Shown here: one piece after another, positions 14,997-20,351 of the stretch
Numbering within the stretch: position 1 is the stretch's first letter
Layout of the letters: each line of letters opens with the position of its first letter
Virus record (IMG/VR): IMGVR_UViG_3300024933_000006
Span: 1-24,221 of that record
Length of the DNA: 24,221 bases
Direction: 5' to 3' (one strand)
Source: a virus
Translations under genes and position numbers: made by a program
Notes under the pieces: generated by a model
Told to the model about the DNA's origin: nothing
Seen by the model: the letters and a program-made list of their open reading frames with translations, nothing else
Database searches by the model: none

Positions 14997-15266
14997 CTAT
15001 GTGGACCCCCCTGCCTTGGCGGGCTCCTTGGCCTCGGTGAATGCGCCGTTGCGCACCAGCGCCCAGTTCACCTTGTCGTTCAGTTGCTCACAAGGAACAC
15101 CTGTGGCAGCGAACACATCAGGGCACCGCTCTGCGGACACGCGGCCCACTTTCAGCCAGTGCTCAACGTGTTGGCGAAGAACTCCGCGGCCGACTGCATC
15201 TGCCAGCTTGGACGGGCTGCCATCGAACGAATCGACAGCGCGCTGAATACCTGTTTTGTTTTCCAT
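14997..15266 (-). CDS. Cro-like YdaS-type helix-turn-helix regulator
   Basis: An 89-residue protein. Residues 16-63 (GSPSKLADAVGRGVLRQHVE, HWLKVGRVSAERCPDVFAAT, GVPCEQLNDKVNW) match the YdaS/Cro-like family pattern of a helix-turn-helix followed by G-x-V-x-x-x-R-C and a terminal W. It is the first gene leftward of the repressor and divergent from it, the place of cro in lambdoid immunity regions. It should lower repressor transcription and favour lytic growth by binding the same operators. Start ATG 15266 has only a weak GAG upstream. Confidence 0.85.
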   Translation of the reverse strand: MENKTGIQRAVDSFDGSPSKLADAVGRGVLRQHVEHWLKVGRVSAERCPDVFAATGVPCEQLNDKVNWALVRNGAFTEAKEPAKAGGST

Positions 15267-15280
15267 TGGGGATACTCAAA

Positions 15281-15345: not shown

Positions 15346-16122
15346 ATGAAAAAGACGCTTGCTGATCAGGTCAGGGAGTACATCCAGTTCATGGGCAAAG
15401 ACTTCACGCCCGGGAAGCTAGCTTTGGAGGTCGCCAAGCGCCAGCGCGACCTGCCAGAAGGAAAGCGCTGCAAGAGGCAGAACATCGAGCAGCTACTCGA
15501 AAGTGATTTCCGAACTGTTCGCTACATCGCCGCACTTGCTGCAGCAATGGGGACCACGGTGGAGACGCTGGTGGCGGGGGCATTCGTACCGAGCGCGGAT
15601 ACAACGCCAAAGGCACGACTGACGCCCGCCCCCGCCCCGCACGAGGCACCATCAGATGCGTCAGGCGCCCCGCCCGATCTGGTCATCGCAGAGTTCGATA
15701 CCGGCGGCGGCATGGACACCACAGGGCGCCTGCTGCTGGACGATCAGCCAGGCATCATCAAGAGCTGGCGCGTGTCCCATGACTGGCTCCGCCTGAATGT
15801 GCCATCGCACACTGGCATCCGCAATCTCTGCATCGTGACTGGCTTCGGCCCATCCATGCGGCCCATGTTCAACCCTGGAGACCCGCTGCTGGTGGACACA
15901 GGGGTGAAGACGGTTACCCACGAGGGTGTCTATTTCTTCCGCGTAGGGGACGAGGGTTATATCAAAATGATCCAGCGGGTTCCCGACCCCCACGGGGACG
16001 GCGTGATGCTCAACATCATCTCCAAGAACCCTGATTTCCCGCCCTACCCCATGTCGCCCAAGAACCCTCACTTTGAGGTGCTGGGAAAGGTGCTGACCGT
16101 GTGGCGCAGTGAGCAGTATTGA
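15346..16122 (+). CDS. CI-like repressor, HTH plus S24 peptidase domain
   Basis: A 258-residue protein. The N-terminal DNA-binding part spans about 1-78 (LADQVREYIQFMGKDFTPGK, KRQNIEQLLESDFRTVRYIA). A Pro/Ala linker (80-112) joins it to a LexA-like S24 domain with catalytic Ser170 in GFGPSMRPMFNPGD and Lys207 in EGYIKMIQR. It should keep the prophage silent by binding the five operators and self-cleave on RecA activation. The cleavage Ala-Gly is not certain; one A-G lies at 77-78. The frame extends upstream to 15256, but ATG 15346 is chosen because operator 3 ends exactly there. No ribosome site exists, so the message is probably leaderless, as with lambda cI from PRM. Confidence 0.92.
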   Translation: MKKTLADQVREYIQFMGKDFTPGKLALEVAKRQRDLPEGKRCKRQNIEQLLESDFRTVRYIAALAAAMGTTVETLVAGAFVPSADTTPKARLTPAPAPHEAPSDASGAPPDLVIAEFDTGGGMDTTGRLLLDDQPGIIKSWRVSHDWLRLNVPSHTGIRNLCIVTGFGPSMRPMFNPGDPLLVDTGVKTVTHEGVYFFRVGDEGYIKMIQRVPDPHGDGVMLNIISKNPDFPPYPMSPKNPHFEVLGKVLTVWRSEQY

Positions 16123-16137
16123 AGGAACGGAGAAACG

Positions 16138-16557
16138 ATGTCCCTGTTGAGAATGGTCACTGGAGCACTGGACACTGAGGTCAACTCATTCACCAAAATT
16201 CTCCAGCGGAGACGCTCTCCATTGCAGATAGCGCCAAGTGGGTCGGGCCAGGGCCTCCTGTACGGATTTGGCCTCTCTGCAATGGGAAACGCAGCCTCTC
16301 CAGAAGCCGTACTTGCCCGCGTCCTCAAAGAGTGGGTTGGGCTAAAGCAATGGTCTATTGATTCGCAAGTTTCTGTCCTGGAAAGCCGCGTGCTTGGGAA
16401 CAAGTACGTCGCACCAGACGGGATAGCAACCTTGGAGCAATGGCTTCAATGGCGCCTTCCTATCGAGTTCCCGCAGCATCAACTTATCCCTGCAAATGGA
16501 TGGACGTCAGAGTTCTATTCTTGGGCTGTAGCACGCGCGGATGAGCACTTTGCATAG
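16138..16557 (+). CDS. Lysogeny-operon protein of unknown function
   Basis: A 139-residue protein (MSLLRMVTGALDTEVNSFTK; TLEQWLQWRLPIEFPQHQLI; ending AVARADEHFA). It begins 15 bases after the repressor stop with GGAG 5 bases before the ATG, so it is expressed with the repressor in the lysogen. GC is somewhat lower than in the flanking arms. No transmembrane helix or domain is evident. Position suggests a lysogenic-conversion or exclusion role, which is inference only. Confidence 0.68.
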   Translation: MSLLRMVTGALDTEVNSFTKILQRRRSPLQIAPSGSGQGLLYGFGLSAMGNAASPEAVLARVLKEWVGLKQWSIDSQVSVLESRVLGNKYVAPDGIATLEQWLQWRLPIEFPQHQLIPANGWTSEFYSWAVARADEHFA

Positions 16558-16852
16558 TGTCTGGATATGTACGGCCATGGTCTTGGTTGTGGCATCGCCG
16601 TGGAGTGCGGAAGCCAAGATTCCTCGCGACCGCGCCCAGGTGCGCGCCTTCCGAGCAGAACAACCCTGCCCCTCCACGGGCCGCACGCGCGGCGCCTGCC
16701 CGGGCTGGCACGTTGATCATGTGACCGCGCTGTGCGCTGGCGGGGCCGACCACCCCAGCAACATGCAGTGGATCACACGAGAGGACCACCGGTTCAAGAC
16801 TCTGGTGGATGTGAGGGAATGCCGGAAGGACCGGCGGAAAGGAATTCGATGA
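16541..16852 (+). CDS. Exported HNH-like endonuclease
   Basis: A 103-residue protein with an N-terminal signal peptide, SVWICTAMVLVVASPWSAEA, cut predicted after AEA (about residue 25). The mature part KIPRDRAQVRAFRAEQPCPS leads into ACPGWHVDHVTALCAGGADH and PSNMQWITREDHRFK: an HNH core with HVDHV, G-G-AD-H-P-SN-MQW and DH-x-x-K. Cysteines at about 43 and 53, and near the end, may bridge in the periplasm. Start 16541 overlaps the previous gene by 17 bases and lacks a clear ribosome site. An exported nuclease made by the lysogen could attack incoming DNA; this role is inferred. Confidence 0.8.
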   Translation: MSTLHSVWICTAMVLVVASPWSAEAKIPRDRAQVRAFRAEQPCPSTGRTRGACPGWHVDHVTALCAGGADHPSNMQWITREDHRFKTLVDVRECRKDRRKGIR

Positions 16853-17166
16853 GCACTTGGTACAAACTCGATCTGGGAAACGGGGCCGCAGCTTTTACGC
16901 CAACACGCAGAATTCAAGAGTCCTTCACGGCGCTACAGATTGCCCATGGCGTACCAAGACCAGAGTGGGCGCTGTTCTCGCGATATGACCTGCGCGCAGA
17001 CAATGTGGAGATGTACTTCACACCCGCAACCACCCCGCTTGCGCTCCAGCTTGGAGCTACACCATGCGACAAGCCAACTCACAACGATTTCAGTCTTGGC
17101 CTACTTTGCGGGGAGGCTGACGGATTGCTTTATCACTTCCCCGATCATCCGCGCATGCGCAGCTAG
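16849..17166 (+). CDS. Conserved-looking protein of unknown function, last gene of the lysogeny operon
   Basis: A 105-residue protein starting MSTWYKLDLGNGAAAFTPTR, with the middle WALFSRYDLRADNVEMYFTP and end DFSLGLLCGEADGLLYHFPD. Start 16849 has AAAGGA 5 bases upstream and overlaps the HNH stop as ATGA. I recall proteins of the same shape (MSTWYKLDLGDG, FSRYDL, YFSP, CEKPS) next to similar HNH genes in other proteobacteria, so the pair may work together; this is from memory. Its 3' end overlaps the oppositely oriented gene 17101-17283 by 66 bases. Confidence 0.75.
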   Translation: MSTWYKLDLGNGAAAFTPTRRIQESFTALQIAHGVPRPEWALFSRYDLRADNVEMYFTPATTPLALQLGATPCDKPTHNDFSLGLLCGEADGLLYHFPDHPRMRS

Positions 17167-17283
17167 CGCGAAGTTGGACACGATCGTGCCCGCAGGGAAT
17201 CCCTCGGTCCTGCCATCCAGGTAGAGACGCCAGACATTCCCATCAGGGCCGCGCAGCTCGAATAGAAGTTCGTCACCCTGCAT
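17101..17283 (-). CDS. Small phage protein, convergent with the lysogeny operon
   Basis: A 60-residue protein: MQGDELLFELRGPDGNVWRL, YLDGRTEGFPAGTIVSNFAL, then a helical tail. The core F-E-L-x-x-PDG-x-VWRLY-x-DGR-x-EGFP-x-GT is a compact beta-rich pattern that I associate with small phage proteins. ATG 17283 has GGAG 5 bases upstream. The frame continues to 17457 but crosses the operators, so the short form is preferred. It would be transcribed leftward from the 17358-17420 region and is therefore probably repressor-controlled. The 66-base overlap with 16849-17166 leaves some doubt. Confidence 0.55.
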   Translation of the reverse strand: MQGDELLFELRGPDGNVWRLYLDGRTEGFPAGTIVSNFALAAHARMIGEVIKQSVSLPAK

Positions 17284-17294
17284 CACTACTCCAT

Positions 17295-17316
17295 ACCGCC
17301 CTTGAGGCGGTTTTTT
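17295..17316 (+). terminator. Rho-independent terminator of the repressor operon
   Basis: ACCGCC-CTTGA-GGCGGT followed by a run of Ts (17311-17316). It isolates the lysogeny transcript from the rightward lytic promoter 70 bases further on. Confidence 0.9.
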
Positions 17317-17357
17317 GTTGCCCGCCCGGATTGGGCGTGGGGGCAGTTTACCGTTAA

Positions 17358-17373
17358 TGCAAACTATCTTGCA
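17358..17373. promoter_or_regulatory. Right operator 1
   Basis: TGCAAACTATCTTGCA matches the left operators with one imperfect position. It lies upstream of the rightward -35 and over a possible leftward promoter (TTGCAA at 17374-17369, 18-base spacer, TAAACT at 17350-17345) for the gene 17101-17283. Confidence 0.8.
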
Positions 17374-17381
17374 AAAAACTC

Positions 17382-17410
17382 TTGCTCTATTGCAAACTTG
17401 TTTGCATAAT
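17382..17410 (+). promoter_or_regulatory. Rightward promoter of the structured-RNA and recombination arm
   Basis: -35 TTGCTC (17382-17387), 17-base spacer, -10 CATAAT (17405-17410; 5 of 6 to consensus). Right operator 2 fills the spacer up to the -10, so repressor should silence it. The predicted start is near 17417, about 1,040 bases before the first convincing gene. Confidence 0.72.
17391..17406. promoter_or_regulatory. Right operator 2
   Basis: TGCAAACTTGTTTGCA is a perfect 6-4-6 palindrome between -35 and -10. Its centre is 33 bp from right operator 1, close to three helical turns. Together with the left cluster it makes five sites for one repressor. Confidence 0.87.
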
Positions 17411-17416
17411 TCATCC

Positions 17417-18457
17417 ATCGCACCAACAACGCGAAACGAACCGGCCCAGACGCACACAGGGCCACGCCGACCGGAGACGCGAGGGGTTCCAGGCCAGATG
17501 GCTGCAGCAAGTTGGAGGCGATGGGGTCAATCCATCGAGAGCAGCCCTCCACGTTCATGCAGCCAGGCACGGCTGGGTAAACGCAGGGCCTCCGCGGGCG
17601 GTAGCGGACAAGAAAAGATCGTCGGTCGCTCAAGTCAGTAGCGCTCTGCCCCCGGATGGGATCGGCAACGCGAACATCAACCAGCCACGCGAAATCCATC
17701 CGCTGGGATCTGTACGGCGGTGAGGCAAACAGGGAGGCCAAGAACAGAAACGACCAGCGCGCAAGCGCTGACAGCTCGGAAAGACACGAGCACGAGAGGA
17801 CAGAAGGCGGCTACCTGCTGCCGGGGTGATGCCCGGTTGCAATGCGCGAGGCTGCCACAGGGGTGCGCTCATGGAGCGGGCGCGCAGAGGGCCGAAGGCC
17901 AGACCAGCCCCTAGGCCGACTGACGATCAATCAGTTGGCCGCCTTCTGTCCTCTCCGATGCCCTCTCACGAGGGCCATCACGCATGCAGGCTTGAAGGGA
18001 TGAGAACGCGCGATTCAGTTCGTTGCCCAACACGCCCGCTACTGAGCCTGCAGCCGTGATGGCGAAACACCTCTCGGCACTGTCATCGAGCAGTGAACCG
18101 AAGAAGCCGGAGTTGGTGGCCCGGCAGCCATCTTCAATTCGCCCTTGTTCACAGGGGCTATGCAGAGTAGCGAACGCGGCTTTCTGCTGACGAATGTAGC
18201 CCGGAAGGGTGAGCGCGACCACCCCGGGAGAGCAGCGGGGACATTTTCGGGGCGGCAACTGCAGTCGCCATGCGCTGGTCGGGGCCGCATACCTCGTAAG
18301 AGACCACACACATACCAGCGATAGCGTTTCCAGTGCGGGGTTTGTCCTTTCCACCGCAGCCGCCCCACCCCCCTCTCCCATACCAACACACATCAGTGCT
18401 TGCCTCGCGGGTCGGGGCATGGGCTGACGATGTTGTCAGGCACTTAGCAGTACCACC
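17417..18457 (+). ncRNA. Candidate large structured non-coding RNA
   Basis: About 1,040 bases with no gene I can support, directly behind an operator-controlled promoter. Complementary arms are dense. Hairpins: 17519-17524/17532-17537, 17756-17769 (GCAA tetraloop), 17821-17825/17832-17836, 17890-17893/17897-17900, 17914-17923/17931-17940 (one G-U), 17960-17965/17970-17975, 18078-18082/18091-18095, 18162-18166/18183-18187 and 18424-18428/18435-18439. Long-range helices: 17794-17811 with 17938-17955 (18 bp, perfect), and 17976-17982 plus 17985-17992 with 18045-18052 plus 18055-18061 (15 bp around a 2x2 internal loop). A nested domain pairs 18193-18197 with 18241-18245, enclosing two further stems. 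Size and phage location recall GOLLD and ROOL RNAs, but I recognise no family consensus. The 3' end is uncertain, with no T-run terminator before the next gene. Confidence 0.6.
17794..17955. repeat. 18-bp perfect inverted repeat closing a central RNA domain
   Basis: The arm at 17794-17811 (GAGAGGACAGAAGGCGGC) is exactly complementary to 17938-17955, with 126 bases between. The enclosed part holds at least three further hairpins. The last three pairs compete with the adjacent 17914-17940 hairpin, so either the helix is 15 bp or the two alternate. Confidence 0.9.
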
Positions 18458-19105
18458 ATGGGAACCGACATCCACGGCGTTTTTCAGCGCCACGACGCCA
18501 CCACGGGAATGTGGCAAGACATCCCCAGCAACTACGAGCAGGACCGCCACTACCAGCTCTTCGCGGTGCTGGCCGATGTGCGCAATGGCACGGGCTTCGC
18601 TGGCGTCAAGACGGGCGATGCCGTGACACCCATCGCCGAGCCGCGCAGCTACCCCGAAGGCTTCGAGGTGGACGATGGCGATGACTACCACCCGATTGCC
18701 GCGCTGGAGCACATGGACCCGCGCCGTCGCAAGTACCACGACGAGAGTGAAAAACTCGTAGTCTGGATGGGCGATCACTCGCATTCCTGGCTTGCGGCCG
18801 AGGAAATGTTGGCGTGGTTCAAGAGCGCTCCGGTCGTCGTGAAGACTGGCATCGTGGGCCGCGAAATCTACGAGCAGTGGGACCGCAAGGGCGCCCCCCG
18901 GAGCTACTGCGGCGGCATTTCTGGCCCCGGCGTTGTCATCGTCCACGACAACGAGCACGAGCGCAATGCGATCCCGAACTGGACCCACATCCGCTGCGAG
19001 TGGGACAGCCCGTTGCGCGCCGAACTTGCCTACTTCTTTGACGAGGTGGCGCGCCTGCAGGCCGAGCACGGGCAGGTGCGTTTCGTCTTCGGCTTCGATT
19101 CCTGA
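18458..19105 (+). CDS. Conserved phage protein of unknown function (GTDIH type)
   Basis: A 215-residue acidic protein beginning MGTDIHGVFQRHDATTGMWQ, then NYEQDRHYQLFAVLADVRNG, EPRSYPEGFEVDDGDDYHPI and DHSHSWLAAEEMLAWFKSAP, ending VRFVFGFDS. The G-T-D-I-H start, R-x-Y-x-x-F-A-x-L-A-x-V-R-N and SWL motifs are typical of a phage protein group with no assigned function. The N-terminal D-x-H and later H/D clusters could bind metal, which is speculation. No ribosome site precedes ATG 18458; translation may depend on the structured leader. It is the first protein gene of the rightward arm. Confidence 0.82.
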   Translation: MGTDIHGVFQRHDATTGMWQDIPSNYEQDRHYQLFAVLADVRNGTGFAGVKTGDAVTPIAEPRSYPEGFEVDDGDDYHPIAALEHMDPRRRKYHDESEKLVVWMGDHSHSWLAAEEMLAWFKSAPVVVKTGIVGREIYEQWDRKGAPRSYCGGISGPGVVIVHDNEHERNAIPNWTHIRCEWDSPLRAELAYFFDEVARLQAEHGQVRFVFGFDS

Positions 19106-19115
19106 CAACACCAGT

Positions 19116-19140
19116 GCATGCCCTGCGCGCCAGGGCATGC
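19116..19140 (+). other. 10-bp perfect stem-loop between cistrons
   Basis: Arms 19116-19125 (GCATGCCCTG) and 19131-19140 are exactly complementary around CGCGC. There is no T-run, so a terminator is unlikely; it may protect or process the message between 18458-19105 and the lipoprotein gene. Confidence 0.6.
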
Positions 19141-19187
19141 GCGGGGCTTGTCGCCGCCTGCCCCAGCGGCATTTCTCAAGGAACACC

Positions 19188-19607
19188 ATGAAATTCACCC
19201 TCATCGCCGCCGTGCTCGCCGCGGCTGCCATGGCCGCGTGCGGCGGCAAAGACGTTGCCCCGCCCGACCGCATGGAGGAAGCCCGCCAGACGGCCAAGGC
19301 CAACGCCGAGTTCAACGCCGCGCTTTACAAGGCGCAGAACCCGCGCTTCACCTCGGATTTCGCCATCGTCAGCCGCAGCGACGACGCGCAAAACCCCGCA
19401 TGCCCCCAGGGCGACGGCTGGGCCGAGCTGTCGATCATGCGCGTTGAAGGCAAGCAGGTGGACAAGACGGTCCTCATGTGCTCCACCTACTCGGCCAGCG
19501 TGGGCTGCTACCGCAAGGACGATTTCGACAAGAACACGAATCTCGCCAAGCAGAACGGCAGTTGCAGCCCCCAGGTGCCCTACCCGCTGCCCCGGATCGC
19601 CAAGTAG
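19188..19607 (+). CDS. Small phage lipoprotein
   Basis: A 139-residue protein with a lipoprotein signal: MKFTLIAAVLAAAAMAACGG, lipobox MAAC, so lipidation at Cys18 and membrane anchoring are predicted. The mature part has EARQTAKANAEFNAALYKAQ, SDFAIVSRSDDAQNPACPQG and several cysteines (near CPQG, VLMCST, VGCYR, GSCSP) that could form two disulfides. Start 19188 has AAGGA 5 bases upstream. Lipoproteins in phage early operons often act in exclusion or lysis; which applies here is not known. The frame upstream to 18933 is a shadow. Confidence 0.75.
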   Translation: MKFTLIAAVLAAAAMAACGGKDVAPPDRMEEARQTAKANAEFNAALYKAQNPRFTSDFAIVSRSDDAQNPACPQGDGWAELSIMRVEGKQVDKTVLMCSTYSASVGCYRKDDFDKNTNLAKQNGSCSPQVPYPLPRIAK

Positions 19608-19610
19608 GCC

Positions 19611-19721
19611 ATGGCCATCCTCACCGGCCTCGTCGGCGCCGGCCTGCTGGCCTGGACTGCCGGCACCTGCTACGCGGCCTACCGCCTGGGCCGCTGGGCC
19701 GAGCGCCGCGCCTCGAAGTGA
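19611..19721 (+). CDS. 36-residue single-helix membrane protein
   Basis: MAILTGLVGAGLLAWTAGTC continues as YAAYRLGRWAERRASK: one hydrophobic helix (3-24) and a basic tail that should stay in the cytoplasm. It starts 3 bases after the lipoprotein stop, with only a weak AGG upstream, so translational coupling is likely. Too short to be certain. Confidence 0.5.
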   Translation: MAILTGLVGAGLLAWTAGTCYAAYRLGRWAERRASK

Positions 19722-19860
19722 CAGCACCAGCAAGAGCCCCGCGCGCGGGGTTCTGACGGGCTTTGTCCCGCATCTTTCCGCCGCGCCAGGGCGCCTTCTC
19801 CTCCCTCCCCTCTCTTCTTCCCCTGGCAGGCCCTGACGGGCAGCGGTTTTCTTTTCCCAC

Positions 19861-19884
19861 AGCCCTCCCCCGCGAGGGCTTTTT
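19861..19884 (+). terminator. Rho-independent terminator before the inserted HNH-type gene
   Basis: AGCCCTC and GAGGGCT arms around a 6-base loop, followed by Ts to 19884. It would end or attenuate the rightward transcript after the small membrane protein, ahead of the endonuclease and recombination genes, so antitermination or read-through is needed for the latter. Confidence 0.82.
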
Positions 19885-19904
19885 CACGTCCACAGGAGAC
19901 ATCC

Positions 19905-20351
19905 ATGGCAGCGAAGACGACGCACGGAATGTCCAAATCACGGGCATTTGTGACTTGGCACAGCATGGTGAACAGATGCCATCAACCCAACTGCAAAACC
20001 TACCGCGGGTATGGCAGCAAAGGCCTCTCCGTGTGCGACCGGTGGCGATTTTCCTTTGAAAACTTTCTGGCCGACATGGGGGAGCCCCCAGACGGATGTT
20101 CGATTGATCGCATCGACAACGCTCTTGGCTATCAGCCAGATAACTGCCGGTGGGCAACAAGGCGAGAGCAGCAGATGAACCGCCACAACACGGTTTTCCT
20201 AACTCTGGGAGAGCACGTTAAGGCGCTGGTTACGTGGGCAGACGAACTCGGAATAAGCCCCATCACCATTGCCACACGCCTCCATCGTGGCTGGTCACAT
20301 GAGCGAGCGCTGACAACCCCAGTAGCGAAGAAAGGCAAAAGCCATGAATGA
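19905..20351 (+). CDS. HNH-type phage endonuclease
   Basis: A 148-residue protein with SRAFVTWHSMVNRCHQPNCK, YRGYGSKGLSVCDRWRFSFE, NFLADMGEPPDGCSIDRIDN and YQPDNCRWATRREQQMNRH: the S-x-x-W-x-x-M-x-x-RC, Y-x-x-YG-x-x-G-x-x-VC-x-RW, SIDRIDN, CRWAT-x-x-EQ series common in phage free-standing endonucleases. The cysteines probably hold zinc and the DRID/N residues form the active site. The C-terminus (100-140) has a helix-turn-helix-like repeat (WADELGISPITIATRLHRGW). Start 19905 has AGGAG 6 bases upstream. Lower GC and a terminator just ahead suggest a mobile insertion into the operon. Confidence 0.87.
   Translation: MAAKTTHGMSKSRAFVTWHSMVNRCHQPNCKTYRGYGSKGLSVCDRWRFSFENFLADMGEPPDGCSIDRIDNALGYQPDNCRWATRREQQMNRHNTVFLTLGEHVKALVTWADELGISPITIATRLHRGWSHERALTTPVAKKGKSHE

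Follow-up and report, generated by a model that had tools for sequence, protein, structure and literature searches.

Background

To our knowledge, few RNA-only antitermination elements have been described. The boxA of E. coli has the sequence TGCTCTTTAACAA, and GOLLD and ROOL, both large and ornate phage RNAs, form RNA-only multimeric cages. The put element of phage HK022 is an RNA-only antiterminator located directly behind PL (PMC9378689), and the boxA of rRNA lets the transcription of long untranslated leaders escape Rho (PMC4807359). Here we describe a leader RNA in a 24,221 nt stretch of viral DNA (IMG/VR record IMGVR_UViG_3300024933_000006, positions 1 to 24,221), hereafter the window. 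An earlier note on this DNA had proposed a single kilobase-scale RNA, like GOLLD or ROOL in size and setting. We find that the leader is instead a mosaic of separable, recombining modules, always promoter-proximal, two of which are named D1 and W. It is well supported as an RNA family without an Rfam entry that is common to many phages, and no publication describing the D1/W leader was found in the open-licence literature searched.

Locus organization and non-coding status

The features of the locus are collected in Table 1. The -35 and -10 elements of the promoter are located within and between two operator-like palindromes; a consensus scan did not report this promoter. A third palindrome, at 15280, is related to both and lies directly upstream of the start of the repressor (~15346), which is an S24-type CI-like protein. 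Since the palindromes at 15280 and at the promoter are alike, one repressor plausibly controls both sides. The protein at the Cro position (14997-15266, minus strand) matches Pfam YdaS, which is termed a toxin; the YdaS family is common at Cro-type regulatory positions. Between the repressor and the leader, a small HNH-type protein with an apparent N-terminal signal peptide is encoded at 16541-16852. The 3' boundary of the leader is real, as the ORF that follows it matches a PHROG over its entire length. Further downstream, within the early operon, an intrinsic terminator-like site occurs at 19862, in keeping with the antitermination role proposed below. A sub-threshold match to the Rfam family sX6 (28.7 bits vs 40) at 19183-19316, over the first part of a gene predicted to encode a lipoprotein, lies outside the leader and is probably due to chance.

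Table 1 Features of the leader and its surroundings, in window positions
Feature	Position	Strand	Description
Terminator-like hairpin and T run (intrinsic)	17295-17311	+	Ends the upstream repressor-side operon
Operator-like palindrome 1	17357-17374	n/a	ATGCAAACTATCTTGCAA
Promoter	17382-17410	+	TTGCTC-17-CATAAT; read from sequence, -35 weak
Operator-like palindrome 2	17390-17407	n/a	TTGCAAACTTGTTTGCAT; overlaps the -10
Non-coding leader	17413-18457	+	From the operator-flanked promoter to the first early gene; ~1,045 bases
D1, 5' structured domain	17413-17516	+	Covariance model R1, built without the window; pair counts
D1 helices	17418-17421/17431-17434, 17438-17441/17486-17489, 17444-17447/17459-17462, 17492-17495/17500-17503	+	
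Complementary trio A, B, C	17415-17421, 17518-17524, 17532-17537	+	A CCATCGC; B GCGATGG; C CCATCG
GTTCATGCAGC	17553-17563	+	Occupies the boxA-like site of most D1 relatives; overlaps the W start
W core, 5' part	17559-17624	+	Helix 17597-17602/17618-17623; 14-member alignment, pair counts
W core, 3' part	17690-17756	+	Helix 17694-17697/17706-17709; pseudoknot 17700-17703/17717-17720; loop GCCAAGAACAGAAA at 17737-17750
Long hairpin	17794-17955	+	24-nt arms (18 bp exact) with a 114-nt insert between
M3	17960-18063	+	Hairpin GCCCTCTCACGAGGGC followed by the 2x2-loop stem 17974-17992/18045-18063
Remainder of leader	18064-18457	+	No conserved module recognised
First early gene	18458-19105	+	PHROG 10141, function unknown; full-length match, E=2e-26

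The ORFs tested from both strands in 17101-18457 gave no Pfam or PHROG match, which, together with the 3' boundary set by the PHROG 10141 gene, bears out the proposal of some 1,040 gene-free bases behind a repressor-controlled promoter. Open frames (e.g. 17911-18420 and 17364-17741 on the minus strand) might point to a protein gene, on one strand or the other, that is diverged or has escaped recognition. Against it stand the missing profile matches, the covarying helices described below and the alignment of the W relatives, in which no stop-free frame is common to all 14 and the lengths are out of register; homologues that keep an open reading frame, named in the earlier note as a possible refutation, were thus not encountered among them. 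Coding on either strand was rejected for D1 and W, and for the leader at large we consider it highly improbable.

A search of the whole window against Rfam at the gathering score, of the kind that the earlier note had advised for 17400-18470, left the leader unmatched, GOLLD and ROOL included, and no GOLLD or ROOL match appeared at E<=1 in 15800-19970 and four relatives. No tRNA or tmRNA gene was found in the window. Thermodynamic folding of the sequence was only modestly more stable than that of shuffles (z=-2.5 on the plus and -1.8 on the minus strand; 20 shuffles per strand). Folding energy by itself is insufficient to settle a structured RNA; it is the covariation among relatives that decides the matter.

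Relatives of the leader

Among annotated phages, blastn with the window and with W/D1 queries identified only Acidovorax phage AP1, where a short match falls in DNA without genes at the equivalent place, behind the repressor-side promoter; annotated plasmids gave no matches. Further relatives, drawn from shared-motif patterns and from the neighbourhoods of RecT homologues, comprised about 25 viral contigs and one bacterial MAG. The leaders of the family are 360-1045 nt long. The start of D1 or W lies between a few and ~150 nt from the operator-flanked promoter in the loci inspected, and the operator sequences and first genes vary among relatives with the start of the RNA alike. A remote D1 (L255; genome G607, contig 128) was found blind by the covariance model and has an operator-like repeat and a -10 upstream, as well as CCTTAAAAAG at the D1 3' end. 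L255 alone was convincing among the genome searches around G001, where L256 and L259 were chance-like matches in coding DNA. The pattern matches L006, L007, L013, L015, L022 and L023, and likewise L238, L239, L241, L242, L244 and L245, were also set aside as chance-like.

Two relatives carry other RNA genes in the leader, and a third resembles DNA of a tRNA array. The L009 leader contains a tRNA-Ala (TGC) gene (L009:1658-1739) enclosed by an 11-bp outer stem. A permuted two-piece tmRNA with the tag ANDSSFLMTANA (L012:1478-1880) lies inside the early leader of L012, between D1 and the boxA-like site. In Pseudomonas phage ZC08, the tRNA array has an unannotated gap of ~430 nt (L011:3674-4107), with a 44-nt stretch in common (89%) with the AP1 leader; this gap may hold an undescribed RNA of the array. 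The tRNA-Ala, the tmRNA and the AP1/ZC08 likeness support an exchange of RNA modules.

Conserved structured modules

A conserved structured RNA almost certainly exists at this locus. The model R1 recovers D1 in the window with 46.6 bits (E=3.7e-10) and zero non-standard pairs, and the model R2, likewise built without the window from the W 3' part, recovers its counterpart with 86.4 bits (E=1e-19). Strong scores of R1 and R2 in the window are confined to 17413-17516 and 17690-17756, respectively.

Double changes occur at 8/16 pairs of D1, with a covariation score reached by 0/500 shuffles, and the D1 pairing was lost when partners were slid as a control. One helix changes from ACCC/GGGT through GACC/GGTC to GAAC/GTTC, the version of the window, and another from GGCCC/GGGCC to GGGG/CCCC. 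D1 begins at about +1, where relatives read CATCGCAGCA..CCGCGA. In the complementary trio of this region (17415-17537), either A:B or B:C pairing is possible, and the two are mutually exclusive. By inspection, the trio is also found in AP1, L008, L009, L036 and L250; that it might be a co-transcriptional switch is only an idea.

The W core comprises ~200 nt (17559-17756 in the window) and was aligned for 14 members; in L202, D1 is fused directly to W. Its 3' part has double changes in 6/12 pairs and a covariation score found in 0/500 shuffles, so that both it and D1 lie well above shuffles and slid controls. An H-type pseudoknot in this part shows compensatory changes, with a nearly invariant loop. 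In the 5' part, where sequence conservation is strong, the helix pairs consistently but covaries more weakly (double changes in 2/9 pairs).

The 15-bp helix with a symmetric 2x2 loop described in the earlier note was found as the long stem of M3. Both arms of this stem change together among phages and are re-paired by different sequences in relatives, and the 2x2 loop is retained in L240. The other perfect or near-perfect helices that had been listed are also present as inverted repeats, including the exact 18-bp pair (17794-17811/17938-17955). The 18-bp pair has no independent relative for comparison: outside the window its hairpin is seen in L005 alone, whose sequence is the same as that of the window. 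This hairpin may serve as a stem for processing, or may be a small insertion made of an inverted repeat. No independent relatives of 17771-17955 and 18064-18457 were present among the relatives found. Overall, the relatives, the covariation and the zero Rfam matches in the leader uphold the claim of a structured non-coding RNA with no known consensus.

A boxA-like motif at the D1 3' end

The motif [CT]TTAA[CAG]A, of the CTTTAA type, is present as a single copy in 11/15 D1 leaders examined, always at the D1 3' end, with forms that include GGTCTTTAACAAG and GGTCTTTAAAAAG. It is located 145-151 nt from the leader start in 9/11, at 71 in L112, where D1 is shortened, and at 122 in L255; its density in the 135-165 nt interval is ~100-fold that of the rest of the leaders. 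We take this motif to resemble the boxA of rRNA and of lambda, with E. coli as a reference that may not be the host's; a host boxA sequence was sought in six genomes and none was found. CTTTAA is absent from four D1 leaders and from the window. At the boxA-like site, the W-type leaders, the window included, instead read G[CT]TC[TA]TGCAGC or a closely similar sequence, and as a weak guess GYTCTTGCAGC (GTTCATGCAGC in the window) might be a boxA variant.

Proposed function and alternatives

We infer an action on RNA polymerase from the conserved structured modules, from where they lie and from the way they are combined. By analogy with known leaders, we propose, with a probability of about one half, that the leader acts in cis early in the lytic cycle, either recruiting host Nus factors to RNA polymerase or modifying the enzyme directly. 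It would form the untranslated 5' end of the early lytic operon on the PL side, where RNA polymerase would start at ~17413 once the repressor is off its operators. D1 would be made first and then W, both folding on the nascent RNA and acting in cis on the transcription complex. Relatives of D1 that bear CTTTAA would offer a boxA to NusB-S10 in the fashion of rRNA leaders; in W-type leaders such as that of the window, W itself would act, in the manner of the HK022 put RNA. The modified polymerase would then get through the long leader, which as untranslated RNA is a Rho target, and through later terminators. The downstream modules, swapped among phages, may be released as separate RNAs.

An effect on polymerase in cis is favoured by the position of the leader, its independence of the first gene, the boxA-like site and the promoter-proximal conservation. 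The differences in operator sequences and first genes among relatives argue against regulation of one particular gene. Counted against antitermination are the lack of CTTTAA in the window and in four D1 leaders, and a leader length (360-1045 nt) well in excess of what put or nut requires. A terminator separating the leader from gene 1 was found in 8/21 relatives vs 7/21 on the antisense strand; as this is not above the control, enrichment of terminators ahead of gene 1 was rejected and is not clear evidence of antitermination.

The main rival, which we consider doubtful, is a role like that of GOLLD and ROOL, with a large phage RNA acting in trans early in the lytic cycle. The transcript would be made for the sake of this RNA, and polymerase would get to the downstream genes by reading through or from a second promoter. 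Leader length and the many modules, more than antitermination needs, speak for it, as do good terminators immediately ahead of gene 1 in a number of relatives (e.g. L045, L249, L250, L253), the tRNA-Ala within the L009 leader, the tmRNA within the L012 leader and the module resembling DNA of the ZC08 tRNA array; some GOLLD linkers also hold tRNAs (PMC12286853). It accounts poorly for a leader placed at the 5' end of an early transcript with the boxA-like motif in a constant position, and for conservation that is focused on the promoter-proximal D1/W and not on the full length, and a GOLLD or ROOL match is absent. The likeness to these RNAs drawn in the earlier note thus stands for size and phage setting and fails for family membership, even at E<=1.

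It is quite unlikely, in our estimate, that the locus is an array resembling an rRNA operon, in which D1/boxA would shield transcription, RNase III would cut the long stems to free several small RNAs, and modules would be gained and lost like phage tRNA genes. Long stems do surround variable inserts (17794-17955 and 17974-18063 in the window), a stem of the GAGCGATGTG..CACATCGTTCTC type recurs in AP1, L008 and L012, and tRNA and tmRNA occur as inserts; most inserts, however, are not recognisable as RNAs. We give still less credence to a 5' UTR with no role beyond keeping the early mRNA stable or governing how gene 1 is translated: a hairpin near the 5' end can form in every leader inspected, but the first genes vary among relatives and most of the conserved modules are far from the start codon. 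The cis-acting leader may also be part of a wider arrangement, a mobile platform resembling an rRNA operon, composed of an early promoter, a self-contained antitermination leader (D1+boxA, or W) and stem-bounded RNA cassettes. The cassettes would be interchangeable, would include tRNA, tmRNA and unknown RNAs, and would be released as effectors early in infection; we hold this speculative and, on balance, unlikely.

If the cis-acting reading is true, the class of RNA-only antitermination would be widened by a leader family that spans phages of different immunity, with no Rfam entry, a covarying pseudoknot and, in many members, a fixed boxA-like site. The tRNA and tmRNA of two relatives also suggest a way in which non-coding cargo could be expressed by phages from a single protected promoter. 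The antitermination proposal is directly testable in a simple reporter.

Comparison with known systems

As in phage tRNA/tmRNA arrays, a tRNA-Ala is found in L009 and a permuted tmRNA in L012, whereas most leader modules are neither and the window has none. GOLLD and ROOL share with these leaders the form of a large, ornate phage RNA, with a tRNA inside or nearby in some members; the window is from a phage and lacks a tRNA, and the L009 leader has one inside. In contrast to GOLLD and ROOL, the leaders are unmatched in Rfam at E<=1, are positioned as operon leaders and are modular, vs one conserved core.

In common with the boxA of rRNA leaders and lambda nut, a boxA-like YTTTAA(C/A)A is found in most D1 relatives at a fixed place behind a structured leader and ahead of long untranslated RNA. 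The window differs in having no CTTTAA, and neither boxB nor boxC was identified in the leader. HK022 put likewise opens an early transcript under repressor control as a structured RNA, with a dedicated phage protein identified in neither system. It consists of two stem-loops in ~70 nt, whereas here D1 (~100-145 nt) is joined by W (~200 nt) and further modules, so that the position behind PL agrees with put and the size and fold do not; we know of no sequence relation between put and D1/W. By these analogies, the D1/W leader appears to belong, as a kind, with phage leader RNAs whose target is transcription, of which it would be a new, modular and much larger form.
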